From Actinopolyspora saharensis (GTDB lineage Bacteria > Actinomycetota > Actinomycetes > Mycobacteriales > Pseudonocardiaceae): a stretch of DNA of 64,000 nt. A program made the translations under genes and the position numbers. The stretch's first letter is position 1; each line of letters begins with the position of its first letter. The notes under the pieces are model-generated. The model did not search any database. It was not told the origin of the DNA and worked only from the letters and a program-made list of their open reading frames with translations. Positions 5,253 to 40,595 of the stretch are shown piece after piece. Location of the stretch: assembly GCF_900100925.1 (NCBI RefSeq), contig NZ_FNKO01000002.1, forward strand, positions 744,001 through 808,000, given 5' to 3'.

Positions 5253-5586
5253 GATTTCCCTCCAGTCCCGATAGAGCTCTTCCGGTCGAGCTGTCGGCCG
5301 TGTCCGGGGGCGTTGCCTCGGTGCGGGCAGTACCGGAAACGCCCACTCCGCCCCTGCACCGCAACGAGAGGTGTCGCCACGCGACCACCCCACGAACATC
5401 GGACAGCCGTGTTCGAGCAGCTGCCGCAACACTCTAATAACTCGACGGAGGTGTGAGGAGTCCTCCGATCGCGGGCCATTGCGAGCACTTGGAGTAATCG
5501 ACAATCGGCCAACGCGCTCCGGGCCGCTTTGGCGAGCTCCGACCCGCGGACCGGAAGCCCCGCGGCGCCTCGGACGGATCCGGTGC
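5253..5586. other. Intergenic region upstream of the PE-like gene
   Basis: About 330 bases lie between the PE-like gene and the DUF3558 gene, both on the minus strand. I see no supported gene. The segment 5430-5460 is less GC-rich and is the likely place for the promoter of the PE-PPE-EspG operon. Confidence 0.3.
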
Positions 5587-6225
5587 TCAGCCGGGCTCGT
5601 CCGTGGCGGTTCCGGACTTCTCCTGCAGGCTGCGCACCGCTTCCGCGGCCACCCGGCGCGCTCCCGCGCACAACTGGTCGAGCGACGCGGGGGACTGCGC
5701 GCCGTCGTCGCGGTACAGCACGCTCAGGTGCTGCCCCCCGGCGACGTCGACGGCCACGTTGCAGGCCAACCGCAGCCCGGGAGTGCGGATCACCAGGGCG
5801 GGGAACCCCTCCACCTTCACCGGTGTCGCCTTCACCTGGGCGGTGTCGCTGGTCCAGACGTTGACGCCCTCCTCCGTGATCAGGGCTATCCGCGCCCCCA
5901 CCTTCGCCCTGCTGTTGCGGTAGCTGCAGGTCCCCGCGTCGTCGAACCCCTCCTCGACCCCGGGAAGCGGATCCCGGTCGAAACCGAGTGCGGCGCGTTG
6001 CCGCTCGGTGAGCACACCGCACGGATCCACTCCCCGCAACGGCAGGTCGAACGGCCGCGGTGGCAAGGAGGACGAGCTCGCCTCCGGAAGCGGCACCGGT
6101 TCGGGCGGAACCGGGCCGCTGTCCGTCGCGTTGCGGGTCGGCAGAACGGCGCACCCGCTGAGCAGGAGCAGCAAACTGAGCAATCCCGGCAGCAAGTGCC
6201 GGGCAGCGGTTATTCGGCCGCGCAT
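5587..6225 (-). CDS. DUF3558-type lipoprotein
   Basis: Predicted cell-surface lipoprotein of 212 residues. The signal peptide has a leucine-rich core ending in the lipobox LLSGC, so Cys is lipidated after cleavage. A Pro/Ser linker follows, then the globular domain. That domain begins VDPCGVLTERQRAALG, has a second Cys in GTCSYRNS and a third in RLACNVAV, and ends with ARRVAAEAVRSLQ. This matches my memory of DUF3558, an actinobacterial family often found near ESX and cell-envelope genes. ATG 6225 is used; TTG 6243 and GTG 6234 are alternatives. It lies 45 bases downstream of the DUF1707 gene and is probably cotranscribed with it. Confidence 0.72.
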   Translation of the reverse strand: MRGRITAARHLLPGLLSLLLLLSGCAVLPTRNATDSGPVPPEPVPLPEASSSSLPPRPFDLPLRGVDPCGVLTERQRAALGFDRDPLPGVEEGFDDAGTCSYRNSRAKVGARIALITEEGVNVWTSDTAQVKATPVKVEGFPALVIRTPGLRLACNVAVDVAGGQHLSVLYRDDGAQSPASLDQLCAGARRVAAEAVRSLQEKSGTATDEPG

Positions 6226-36139: not shown

Positions 36140-37381
36140 TCACTCCGCGCCGAGCGGACTCAGCGCGCGCAGCGCCGGGGCGCTGAACAGGGCGGTCACC
36201 CCGACCAACACCGCCGCGCCCAGGATCACCGCCGCCGGTGAGGTGAACTCGGCCAACGGACCGGCCATACCCGCCCCGAGCGGCATCAACCCCCAGGCGA
36301 GCACGCGATGCGCGCTGGTCACCCGCCCCATCATCGGCCGTGGCGTCAGGCGCTGCCGGTTCGCCGCGGACAGCACGTTCCACGTTCCCGCCCCGAACCC
36401 CATGACGAAGTAGGCCAACCACGCTGCCCCGGGGAGCCGCACCAGGTCCAGCGCCGCGATTCCCAGCGCCAGCACGACCAGTGCCGCGATCATCACCGCA
36501 CCACCCCCGAAACGCCCGGACAGCGCGGAAGCCGTGCGCGAGGCCAGCAGAGTGCCCAGCGCAGTGCACACCAGCAGTGTCGGAACCGCACCCGGGGAGA
36601 GTCCGAGCGACTCCAGCGCGAACAGCACCGCTATCGCGTTGACCGCGCTGGTCAGCAGCGCCACCAGCCCGACGACGCCGACGACCGTGCGCAGTGCGTG
36701 CTGACGCAGGAGAAAGCCCATCCCCTCGCGGATCTCGACGGCGATGGAACGACTCCCCGCTCCGCGCACCGGCTCGACCTCCCCCGGAACTCGGGAGGTC
36801 CACACCGCCGCGAACGCGAAGGCCACCGCGGTCAACGCGAAGCACAGCGCGGGGCGCCAGCCGAACAGACCGGCCGCGGCGAGCGGACCAGCTATCTCCA
36901 CCCCCACCGTCTCCACACCGACGAACCGCCCGTTGGCTCTCTCCAGTTCGGATTCACCCGCGGTCGACACCAGCAGGGACTGCGCCGCTGAATCGGCGAA
37001 GGTCTCGGCGCCGCTGAGCAGGAAGGCACAGCCCAGCAGCACCGGCAAGGGCGCTGCTCCGGCGTGGATGAAACCGGCCAGCAGCAAGGTCACCACGCAC
37101 CGGAAGGAGTGTGCCGGGATCAACGTGCCACGGCACGGCAGGCGGTCCACCAGCGCACCGGCGGGCAGGGCGATCAACAACCAGGGAACGACCTCGGCCA
37201 CCGCGACTGCCGAGACGGACAGCGGGTCGCGCGTGCTGACGGCCGTGTACAGCGGCAGGGCCGCGGCACGGACCCCGTCGGCCATCGAGGTGGCCGTCCA
37301 CGTCGCTAGGAGCCGCCGGAAGGCCCGCCCGCGCACTCCGCGAACAATCCGATCCTCGACTCCGTCCGAGGTGCTGGTCAT
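36140..37381 (-). CDS. MFS transporter, likely RiPP exporter
   Basis: Major facilitator protein of 413 residues with 12 predicted membrane segments, resembling the EntS/MFS_3 group of efflux carriers. Marks are the N-terminal FRRLLATWTATSMADGV, PAGALVDRLPCRG (the loop 2-3 motif in weak form) and RFVGVETVGVEIAGPLAAAGL. It starts 42 bases downstream of the DUF5825-like gene on the same strand. It is the last gene of the minus-strand cassette 40154-36140. In this context, export of the modified peptide or self-immunity is the obvious role, but the substrate is inferred only from position. Confidence 0.82.
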   Translation of the reverse strand: MTSTSDGVEDRIVRGVRGRAFRRLLATWTATSMADGVRAAALPLYTAVSTRDPLSVSAVAVAEVVPWLLIALPAGALVDRLPCRGTLIPAHSFRCVVTLLLAGFIHAGAAPLPVLLGCAFLLSGAETFADSAAQSLLVSTAGESELERANGRFVGVETVGVEIAGPLAAAGLFGWRPALCFALTAVAFAFAAVWTSRVPGEVEPVRGAGSRSIAVEIREGMGFLLRQHALRTVVGVVGLVALLTSAVNAIAVLFALESLGLSPGAVPTLLVCTALGTLLASRTASALSGRFGGGAVMIAALVVLALGIAALDLVRLPGAAWLAYFVMGFGAGTWNVLSAANRQRLTPRPMMGRVTSAHRVLAWGLMPLGAGMAGPLAEFTSPAAVILGAAVLVGVTALFSAPALRALSPLGAE

Positions 37382-37423
37382 CGTTCCACGCCCTTCAGAC
37401 CGCGCCCCACCACGGCGCGGCCC

Positions 37424-38035
37424 TCACACCACCATCGCCGGTACCGGCCACCGACGGACCCTGGCCGGTGCCCACCAGTCGAACGCGCCCACCCGGACGA
37501 GCAGAGCGTTGGCCGCGAACCGCTCTCGTGCCACCGCGCTGATCGTCTCGGGATCAGCTCCGTTCGACAACCCGCGAGCCGCTTGAACCAGCTCGGGGTC
37601 GTCGACCGTGTAGCACTCCATGACTCCGTTACGCCGGTCGCGAATCTGGATGAATCCTGGTCCCTCACGCTGGACGCACCGGCACGGGAAACAGGACTCC
37701 CGCCAAGCGGTCAGATCGATTCCCCGTCCCCGGCCGGTGACTCCTTCGGGAGGTCGCAGATGGGACAGAGCGTGCCAGTCGAAATGGGGATTCGCGCAGT
37801 GCAGCCACCAGGAGCAGGGCACTCCCCACGCCCCGAGCTCCCGCAACAGGCTCAACGCAGTCGTATCACTGTCGCCCCCATGTCCGATGCGAACCGGCTC
37901 CGACAAGACCACGGCGCGCACACCACCCGCGAAAAGTTCCTCGGCCTGTCCGACCGGGTCGGCCCGCACCACGTCCTCCTCCGGGGCACGCCCGGCCACC
38001 GAACCGGCGGTGCTCTCGTGCAGCAGGATCCTCAT
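37424..38035 (-). CDS. DUF5825-like protein of the RiPP cassette
   Basis: Protein of 203 residues with no catalytic motif I can name. It has a Rossmann-like alternation at the start (MRILLHESTAG, ELFAGGVRAVVLSEPVRIG), the segment LRELGAWGVPCSWWLHC, and HLRPPEGVTG. The cluster ESCFPCRCVQREG has three cysteines that could bind metal. From memory this is the DUF5825 family, which occurs next to radical-SAM C-methyltransferases of RiPP clusters. ATG 38035 has GGGAGAG just upstream. A 145-base gap separates it from the radical SAM gene. Possible roles are peptide recognition or leader handling, which are guesses. Confidence 0.62.
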   Translation of the reverse strand: MRILLHESTAGSVAGRAPEEDVVRADPVGQAEELFAGGVRAVVLSEPVRIGHGGDSDTTALSLLRELGAWGVPCSWWLHCANPHFDWHALSHLRPPEGVTGRGRGIDLTAWRESCFPCRCVQREGPGFIQIRDRRNGVMECYTVDDPELVQAARGLSNGADPETISAVARERFAANALLVRVGAFDWWAPARVRRWPVPAMVV

Positions 38036-38180
38036 TCCGCTCTCCCGAAACAGTCCGGTAAGTCCTCAGCGGACCTCCCCGGCTCGGATCACCGGCGGCG
38101 AGGTCTTCCCTTCGTGCTCCTGAATTCGAGGAACGCCGCCCGAGCAGTCGGCATCGCCACGCGCACCGAACCGGCGAACC

Positions 38181-40010
38181 TCAAAGCCGAAGCAGCTCCT
38201 GGTTGTTGTCCTCCGGCACAACGTGCACGTAATCATCCGACTCGGTAAAAACGATTCCCGCGCACACCCACTCGTCGAGCTTGTCCCGCAACTCCGCATC
38301 GCGGCCGAAGCGCCGCACCAGGTTCTCGACAGAACGAGGGTGTTCCAAAGCGCGGAACAGCTCAGTCTCGAACGGATCACTCAGCACCAACTCGCTGCAG
38401 CCGAATCCGGAGCGCTGTCCGAGAACCACGATCTCCCCGTCCCGTTCGACCCGCTTCAGCCAGCTCCCCGGGTGAGCCTCGGACCAGTGCCGCACGGCTT
38501 CCAGCAGCCCCTTCTCGGTCTCACCGACTATGCCGGCAGGAACGGTGGTGAACAAGTACGCCAGATCCTCGAGCTCCCGCTCGGGCAGATCGTAGGTGAT
38601 GAAGTACTGGTCCTCGGGGATTCGCCACTCGAACCCCAACTGCGGATCGTCGAAGTACGGGCTGAACCTCTCCAGGGCTATCCGGCTCGCCCCATCCATC
38701 GGGGGAAGGTGGACAAGCGCCGGAAACTGACGCAGCACCGCGGTGTAGTCCTCCTCCCGCTCACCGGGAAAACCGTACAGCAGATTCCACATGACGGTCA
38801 TGCCCAGCGAACCGGCATCCCGCAGCATCCGAACGTTCTGGCAGCCGCCCACACCCTTGTTCATGATGCCGAGCACGCGCGAACTCAGGCTCTCGATGCC
38901 GGGCTGAACCTGGACCACCCCCGCCCGGACGAGGTCGCGAAGCTGTTCGTACCGTAGATTAGACTTGATCTCGCACTGGATCCTGAGGTCCCAACCGGCT
39001 TCGGAAAGCCACGGCAGCACCGTTCTCAGATACTCCATGTCCAGTATGTTGTCCACCAGGTACACATCCAGAACCTGATACCTGGAGGTCAGATCCACCA
39101 GTTCAGCGTAGAAGCGTTCCGGCGTTTTGCTCCGGAATTCCATGAAGGAACCGTTCAGGCCACAGAAAGTGCAGTGGTGCTTCTCGCCCCACCAGCACCC
39201 GCGCGCCCCTTCCAGAACCAGCTTCGGTTCCACCCGCTCGGAGACCGTGCTCCGGTGGAACCGTTCCAAATATCCATCGAAGTCGGGCGCGACGATCTCC
39301 GAAGGGCGCACCGGGGCGGCGGTCATGGCATTGACCACGGACTTCCCCACCTCATCGCGCCAGCACAGGCCAGGAACAGTGGAAAGGTCCTCGCCGCGTT
39401 CCAGTTTTCCGACCAGCCGTGGAAAGGCGGACTCCCCTTCTCCGCGCACCACGTGGTCGACGAATTCGAAATTGCGGTGCCACGCCGCACCCTGCGCGCC
39501 GTCGCAGTTGGCTCCGCCGAACACCACCAGCAGTTCGGGACGTCTCCTCTTGAGCTCGCGGGCCAGCGCGAGCGAGGCGGTGTTCTGCTGGAAAGTCGTG
39601 GAGAACCCGACCAGCTCCACGTCCGAGGTGGCTATTTCAGCTGCGTACCCGCGGATCCACTCCCCCACGTGCCGGTGCAGCCGCACGCAGAGGTCCAATC
39701 GATCACTGTCGATCTCCGGACGACGCCGCTCCAGGAACTCCGGCACACGCCACTCCGGCAAACCATACAGCGCGGCCGAAAAAACCCAGTCCCCACAGCC
39801 CTGGAAGTAGGATTCGAGCGCGAAGAAATCGTACTCGGACACTCCCAGCCCCATCCGGTCGTGCACCCAGTCGAAGAAGTCGATATTGGCGTTCAACACC
39901 CGAACCGACTCGTCGTCCGAGTCGGATTCAAGAGTCGATTTGAGTATGCCGCATGCCAGTGAGGGGTACTCGACGGAGGCCCACGGCATGTTGATCAGAG
40001 TAGTTCTCAC
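38181..40010 (-). CDS. B12-dependent radical SAM peptide C-methyltransferase
   Basis: Enzyme of 609 residues. It begins with the strand RTTLINMPWASVEYPSLACG. A cobalamin-binding-type domain (about 125-235) contains ELVGFSTTFQQNTASLAL and VVFGGANCDG. The radical SAM core has EGARGCWWGEKHHCTFCGLN, a CX7CX2C cluster motif (Cys 272, 280, 283), then VYLVDNILDM and QPGIESLSSRVLGIMNKGV. This matches the family called RiPP maturation radical SAM protein 1 (TIGR03975, from memory), thought to methylate unactivated carbons of a ribosomal peptide. GTG 40010 is used; TTG 40028 and GTG 40022 are in-frame alternatives. The peptide gene lies just upstream. Confidence 0.86.
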   Translation of the reverse strand: MRTTLINMPWASVEYPSLACGILKSTLESDSDDESVRVLNANIDFFDWVHDRMGLGVSEYDFFALESYFQGCGDWVFSAALYGLPEWRVPEFLERRRPEIDSDRLDLCVRLHRHVGEWIRGYAAEIATSDVELVGFSTTFQQNTASLALARELKRRRPELLVVFGGANCDGAQGAAWHRNFEFVDHVVRGEGESAFPRLVGKLERGEDLSTVPGLCWRDEVGKSVVNAMTAAPVRPSEIVAPDFDGYLERFHRSTVSERVEPKLVLEGARGCWWGEKHHCTFCGLNGSFMEFRSKTPERFYAELVDLTSRYQVLDVYLVDNILDMEYLRTVLPWLSEAGWDLRIQCEIKSNLRYEQLRDLVRAGVVQVQPGIESLSSRVLGIMNKGVGGCQNVRMLRDAGSLGMTVMWNLLYGFPGEREEDYTAVLRQFPALVHLPPMDGASRIALERFSPYFDDPQLGFEWRIPEDQYFITYDLPERELEDLAYLFTTVPAGIVGETEKGLLEAVRHWSEAHPGSWLKRVERDGEIVVLGQRSGFGCSELVLSDPFETELFRALEHPRSVENLVRRFGRDAELRDKLDEWVCAGIVFTESDDYVHVVPEDNNQELLRL

Positions 40011-40041
40011 CGCTGGCTTCACCCGCAATCGGGAGTGCGAG

Positions 40042-40066
40042 CGGATGGGGCGCGCGGCCCCATCCG
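40042..40066 (-). promoter_or_regulatory. Intergenic hairpin between peptide and enzyme genes
   Basis: CGGATGGGG (40042-40050) and CCCCATCCG (40058-40066) pair perfectly over nine bases, plus one inner C-G pair. They lie in the gap between the precursor stop (40074) and the radical SAM start. No T-run follows, so it is not a full terminator. Such hairpins often protect or attenuate transcripts so that the peptide is made in excess over the enzyme. Confidence 0.6.
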
Positions 40067-40073
40067 ATCGAGA

Positions 40074-40154
40074 TCACTTCAACGAGATCCGCACTCCTAC
40101 GGGTCCCGTTCCGCTGGAACCGCTCGGATTGTTGTGAACCGTTTTCCTCTCCAT
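40074..40154 (-). CDS. Candidate RiPP precursor peptide (26 aa)
   Basis: ATG 40154 opens a 26-codon frame that ends at TGA 40074. The Shine-Dalgarno AGGAGGTGA (40168-40160) is nine bases of perfect complementarity to 16S rRNA, the best in the window. The peptide starts MERKTVHNNP, has a Ser/Gly-rich middle and ends GPVGVRISLK; it contains no Cys. Codon and base use (AAA, AGG, GTA, TTG) differ from the GC-rich neighbours. It lies 63 bases before the radical SAM methyltransferase on the same strand. The precursor role is inferred from position, size and ribosome binding site; an in-frame extension upstream lacks its own signal. Confidence 0.6.
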   Translation of the reverse strand: MERKTVHNNPSGSSGTGPVGVRISLK

Positions 40155-40595
40155 GGAACTCACCTCCTGACGGAGCGACCGCAGCCGGGACGCAGCAGAG
40201 GAACTCCGCGAACGGCCTACTGACCACGAAACTCGGAAAGACCCACCGGCCCCTCCGAGCAGCGGCCCACTCGGCACACTAACCGGAGGCAACGGGATTC
40301 GTTCTGACCTGATAGCAGGAAATTTCGTCGCGGGACTGCTGAGCCGTTCGAATCAGCCCGCTGATGCCTCGTGCCGAGTATCCGGGACGTGCCCTGGGTG
40401 TTCCGAATCAGCTCACGCGCGTCTCGGCAGCGACGAGCAACACCGCATCACTCGGTTCGAAGCCACCCCATAAGAGCAATCACGGAACGTTCGGAATCAG
40501 GAACACTGCGTAGTCGAAGTGGAGTGAGTTCCACACGCTTCTCGCGCACGAAACATTGATCTTGAAATTTCCGGTGAGTTCCGTGCGGACCCGGT
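40155..40595. other. AT-richer region upstream of the RiPP cassette with repeated GTTC-GAATCAG
   Basis: About 440 bases without a supported gene and visibly lower in GC than the flanks. Three copies of GTTC(C/G)GAATCAG, the first lacking one base, lie at 40346-40356, 40400-40411 and 40489-40500. Their cores TTCGAA, TTCCGAA and TTCGGAA are near-palindromic. They may be binding sites for a regulator of the cassette. Confidence 0.4.

Follow-up and report, generated by a model that had tools for sequence, protein, structure and literature searches.

What is made by a four-gene unit on the minus strand of a 64,000-nucleotide stretch of the Actinopolyspora saharensis genome (contig NZ_FNKO01000002.1, positions 744,001 to 808,000; hereafter the window), and does it belong to a known pathway? 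In order of transcription the unit encodes a peptide of 26 amino acids, a B12-dependent radical S-adenosylmethionine (SAM) enzyme of family TIGR03975, a DUF5825 protein and a transporter of the major facilitator superfamily (MFS). All four genes are intact. We consider it likely that this cassette is an operon of the B12-radical-SAM/DUF5825 kind for a ribosomally synthesized and post-translationally modified peptide (RiPP). The short product would be C-methylated while its leader is presented by the DUF5825 protein, freed by a protease encoded outside the cassette and exported by the MFS protein. A homologous pair of B12-radical-SAM enzyme and DUF5825 protein C-methylates amino acids in clavusporin biosynthesis, according to a recent report (JACS 2025, PMC12257519).

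The cassette genes and the precursor peptide

All features described here lie on the minus strand of the window. The precursor gene (40074..40154; MERKTVHNNPSGSSGTGPVGVRISLK) is preceded by AGGAGGTG (40161..40168), read directly, which ends six bases before the ATG and which, judged by the usual consensus, we take to be the ribosome-binding site. The leader, MERKTVHNNPSGSSGTGP, carries the motif KTVHNNP at residues 4-10 (40125..40145), which is conserved in the window's branch and among wider relatives. The presumed core VGVRISLK comprises residues 19-26 (40077..40100). The leader/core border probably lies between Pro18 and Val19. It was placed by alignment with the Streptomyces clavuligerus peptide (...RKP-SVGITITVPF), in which VGITITV of pSCL4 matches VGVRISL of the window residue by residue, both with an aliphatic residue at every second position.

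The radical SAM gene was assigned to 38181..40010. The mechanical open reading frame (ORF) is 38181-40028, but alignment with homologues makes the GTG at 40010 the more likely start. The enzyme matched the TIGR03975 profile with 574 bits (cut-off 281.85) over residues 10-603, and the Pfam families B12-binding (PF02310; 35.8 bits, cut-off 32.1) and Radical_SAM (43.4 bits, cut-off 29.5). In the numbering of the longer ORF, the B12-binding domain spans residues 129-205 (39414..39644) and the CX7CX2C motif of the [4Fe-4S] cluster residues 278-289 (C278, C286 and C289; 39162..39197). This motif was present in 101 of 101 aligned enzyme rows, the window and duplicate retrievals counted. The DUF5825 protein (37424..38035; 203 amino acids) reached 206 bits against PF19142 (cut-off 25), and the transporter, presumably the exporter (36140..37381), 75.2 bits against MFS_1 (cut-off 33.4). 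The original prediction had described a minimal RiPP cassette with exactly these elements, an MFS gene at its end, and no protease, cyclase or dehydratase. All of this was confirmed.

A wide scan yielded 516 stretches encoding relatives of the enzyme, and the best 80 were used. A short ORF with a leader of the [IV]xN[DNS]P type, a small number of variants being accepted, was located upstream in 69 of these 80 loci with the first motif and in 72 with a relaxed motif. Among the remaining loci L067 was doubtful and seven were without precursor, two of them with only 106 and 22 bases upstream. Another 18 loci (17 with 41-46% enzyme identity and L129 with 57%) yielded no precursor carrying such a leader. 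In all 12 species of the window's branch, the window included, the precursor precedes the enzyme, as had been expected of homologous loci. With this and with the TIGR03975 and B12-binding matches of the enzyme, the original prediction withstood both checks by which it was to be refuted. The leader motif reads V[HY]N[DNS]P in this branch and mostly [IV]xN[DN]P across the wider relatives. The precursors read KTV[HY]NNP...GPVGVRISL[KA] in Actinopolyspora, TTVHNDP...GPVGVRIS in one further genus and TVHN[DS]P...VR[VI]SK in Saccharopolyspora. The segment V21-R22-[VI]23-S24 is common to 12/12 species, and V21 and I23 are the only core positions that are Val or Ile in all of them.

Among the 16 codons of leader motif and core compared in five Actinopolyspora species, seven varied by synonymous changes only and two with replacement. 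A strict peptide motif was searched for in every frame (six) of 226 sequences with 2.14 Mb in total. Its 21 matches, duplicates included, all lie directly upstream of branch enzyme genes, and no match arose when the window's upstream stretch was shuffled 20,000 times; composed from these same peptides, the motif demonstrates specificity and not independence. A Streptomyces olivochromogenes locus (L075) has two precursor candidates in tandem (5565-5651 and 5833-5928).

The branch of the window and the clavusporin operon

A FastTree phylogeny was calculated from 101 of 116 enzyme rows; the other 15 were interrupted by a stop within the aligned region and were removed, and fragments below 150 bits were left out. 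The window's branch is one clade with support 1.0. Its 19 tips correspond to 12 species once seven duplicate retrievals are removed, from Actinopolyspora, Saccharopolyspora and one further genus. All 12 have DUF5825 and an MFS gene of the window type at the 3' end of the cassette. A prolyl oligopeptidase (POP) gene was found in none of the 12 within the flanks examined (upstream 1.2 kb in one species and at least 5.89 kb in the other 11). With five of the 12 loci as queries, no other genes common across genera were seen in the flanks. Outside the branch (73 loci of the best 80), 68 loci had at least 2.5 kb upstream, and POP lay beside the enzyme in 60 of these. It was missing in the other eight, so the window's branch is not alone in lacking it. 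Actinopolyspora genome G054 also encodes a second, distant enzyme of the same kind (L123 6621-8435; 41% identity) with its own DUF5825 match (G054:C28).

In S. clavuligerus pSCL4 (L111) the order of genes is MFS, alpha/beta hydrolase (used as POP query), an unannotated precursor (MQKDVIHNDPLAGDEENRKPSVGITITVPFRNAEDADED), TIGR03975 and DUF5825. We infer that this operon is the clavusporin (mpc) locus and that its hydrolase is MpcP, a POP which takes part in clavusporin leader removal according to a 2026 paper (PMC12951456). The pSCL4 precursor gene (L111 6812-6931) is absent from the PLSDB gene table of that record.

The alternative that survives best, unlikely as we consider it, is that the cassette is a plain clavusporin operon. 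It would have the same class of product and the same surfactant or developmental role, and its leader would be cut by a chromosomal POP homologue. Clavusporin reportedly has such a role, and its hydrophobic C-methylated core is said to show surfactant activity. The two systems are alike in an [IV]xNDP-type leader, the TIGR03975 enzyme (52% identity), the DUF5825 protein (33%) and the order of these genes. The missing POP may not be a defining difference in view of the eight relatives without it. Furthermore, a Pro precedes the core in Actinopolyspora, and the window's genome codes elsewhere for a POP homologue with 41% identity over residues 268-598 and 34% over residues 5-212. In contrast, the MFS gene stands at the opposite end of the cassette and the similarity of its product to the pSCL4 transporter is not significant (BLASTP E 5.6), and the flanks examined are free of POP throughout the branch. 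The branch core is short and cationic, with about eight residues or fewer around V-R-[VI]-S and with Arg and mostly Lys, whereas that of pSCL4, SVGITITVPFRN with the hydrophobic stretch VGITITVPF, bears an acidic tail in addition. In Saccharopolyspora there is no Pro at the junction.

The cassette itself has no protease gene for leader removal. The chromosomal POP homologue is a candidate and could cut after Pro18 (GP-VGVRISLK). It was detected in 10/10 Actinopolyspora genomes, cassette present or not, with 39-43% identity over the C-terminal part. As Saccharopolyspora precursors are without the junction Pro, a different protease or a different cleavage site is needed in that genus. POP is also missing in two Streptomyces loci (L010 and L078), which have no Pro at the presumed junction.

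Thus, a RiPP operon that probably works like the clavusporin operon is preferred to a clavusporin operon in the strict sense. It is quite possible, although we propose it tentatively, that the POP-free B12-radical-SAM/DUF5825 branch is a separate minimal RiPP class. It would make cationic C-methylated peptides of about 6-8 residues around V-R-[VI]-S, which would have their own function as signal or antibiotic and not as surfactant. DUF5825 would then be a new fusion of a RiPP recognition element (RRE), by which the leader is brought to a B12 radical SAM enzyme.

Proposed pathway and history of the cassette

DUF5825 is listed in Pfam as a domain of unknown function. The structure model of the window's protein (predicted local distance difference test 89.6) contains a C-terminal RRE-like winged-helix domain (residues 118-186; 37478..37684) with strands 120-125, 128-133 and 140-144 and helices 147-157, 162-164 (short) and 167-175. 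The best match of this predicted domain in the PDB is the leader-binding protein TbiB1; by its predicted fold, DUF5825 is therefore probably an RRE-type leader-recognition partner. In contrast to the lasso-peptide B1 proteins, the winged helix is fused to a separate N-terminal domain, and the similarity in sequence is not significant (profile against PqqD/B1, P 0.016, with one of ten shuffled comparisons scoring better). The precursor leader of genome G046 reads YNNP, resembling the YxxP motif of lasso leaders. The string YxxP was not found in PMC5067487. Elsewhere, the window's genome also codes for a protein that scores beyond the cut-off of the lasso-peptide B1 family (G000:C1:899194-899424). 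A DUF5825 protein labelled Nocardia farcinica (P0008) and its Saccharopolyspora hirsuta counterpart (L130) differ in hardly any letter, which indicates a mislabelled or contaminated assembly or a recent transfer.

In the proposed pathway the winged-helix half of DUF5825 most likely binds the precursor via KTVHNNP and would hand it to the TIGR03975 enzyme. This enzyme is expected to move methyl groups from methylcobalamin onto unactivated carbons of the core. The likeliest targets are Val21 and Ile23, each at the beta carbon, because only these core positions are Val or Ile in all 12 species; Val19 is possibly methylated as well. A protease from outside the cassette, perhaps the chromosomal POP homologue acting after Pro18, would free VGVRISLK or a shorter piece, which the MFS protein would export. 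A short linear C-methylated peptide, as predicted originally, is still the best guess for the product. If this is true, the cassette achieves radical C-methylation of a peptide with very few parts: one enzyme, one partner and a substrate of 26 residues with only two or three likely sites. The leader-recognition role of DUF5825 would then be directly testable.

It is improbable that the radical SAM enzyme introduces a cross-link or another oxidative change into the peptide instead of methyl groups. The B12-radical-SAM enzyme PbsB is reported to form a C-C cross-link, but it is proposed to act on phenols, and the window's core has no aromatic residue. Besides, the enzyme described together with DUF5825 is reported to methylate.

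The flanking genes raised the question whether the cassette had been inserted, as it was said to look. At the site between the glycosyltransferase and flavodoxin genes, five of the ten Actinopolyspora genomes searched have an intact cassette (the window, G046, G048, G052 and G054), two a decayed one (G050 and G051) and three none (G047, G049 and G053). A recent horizontal insertion into the window's lineage would fit with the finding that neither of its two nearest relatives, with 95 and 93% identity in the flanks, has the cassette. It would also fit with the low G+C of the enzyme gene (0.621 versus 0.70 for the window) and with the identity of the window's enzyme to the other Actinopolyspora copies, 69-72%, compared with 79-82% for the flanks. 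But the site is the same in all ten genomes, and the enzyme gene has a G+C of 0.606-0.633 in four other members too (one Actinopolyspora and three Saccharopolyspora). Moreover, G047, one of the two nearest relatives, retains 126 bases of the transporter 3' end, identical to the window at 105 of 126 positions and to the other four intact copies at 78-87. This remnant is nearer to the window's gene than to any of those four. The cassette was therefore very probably present in the last ancestor shared by G047 and the window, and G047 has lost it since. The cassette is probably ancestral in the genus and undergoing repeated loss. Exchange across species may have occurred at this site, given that the window's enzyme has diverged further than its flanks. 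With occupied, decayed and emptied copies of one site and a transporter scar, we hold a recent insertion to be improbable as well. Close Actinopolyspora relatives with an intact, a decayed or no cassette could serve as natural controls in the search for the product and its benefit.

The peptide gene has only 26 codons and two relatives have decayed cassettes, which might point to an ORF that arose by chance or to a remnant without function. Such a reading is very improbable given the ribosome-binding site, the leader and core conserved with synonymous change, the strict motif found nowhere else in the 2.14 Mb, and a nonsynonymous rate (dN) below the synonymous rate (dS) in 5/5 pairs for each of the other three genes, although dS is close to 1 wherever the window is one of the pair.

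Comparison with known systems

The CX7CX2C motif has been reported for PoyC, the B12-radical-SAM enzyme of polytheonamide, which beta-methylates Ile and Val according to a review (PMC11285071). Methylation of Val and Ile at the beta carbon is also the reaction predicted here. In contrast, PoyC belongs to a larger cluster and acts on residues 1-21 of a far longer core. In biphenomycin-like clusters with YHxYxY precursors a second B12-radical-SAM enzyme beside DUF5825 was reported. These clusters also contain a multinuclear non-heme iron-dependent oxidase (MNIO) and its partner protein, whereas the window's cassette has neither.

The closest system is that of clavusporin. Its pair of B12-radical-SAM enzyme and DUF5825 protein has already been reported for C-methylation in PMC12257519, and the original description of the pathway type as possibly undescribed does not hold. 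Precursor, enzyme and DUF5825 follow in a row in the window as in clavusporin-type operons. A POP encoded in the operon (MpcP) and the same exporter are lacking, and for this reason the cassette is not classed as a clavusporin operon. Known, therefore, is the clavusporin-type B12-radical-SAM/DUF5825 pathway; new is a form of it without a protease, with another exporter and with a smaller, charged core.
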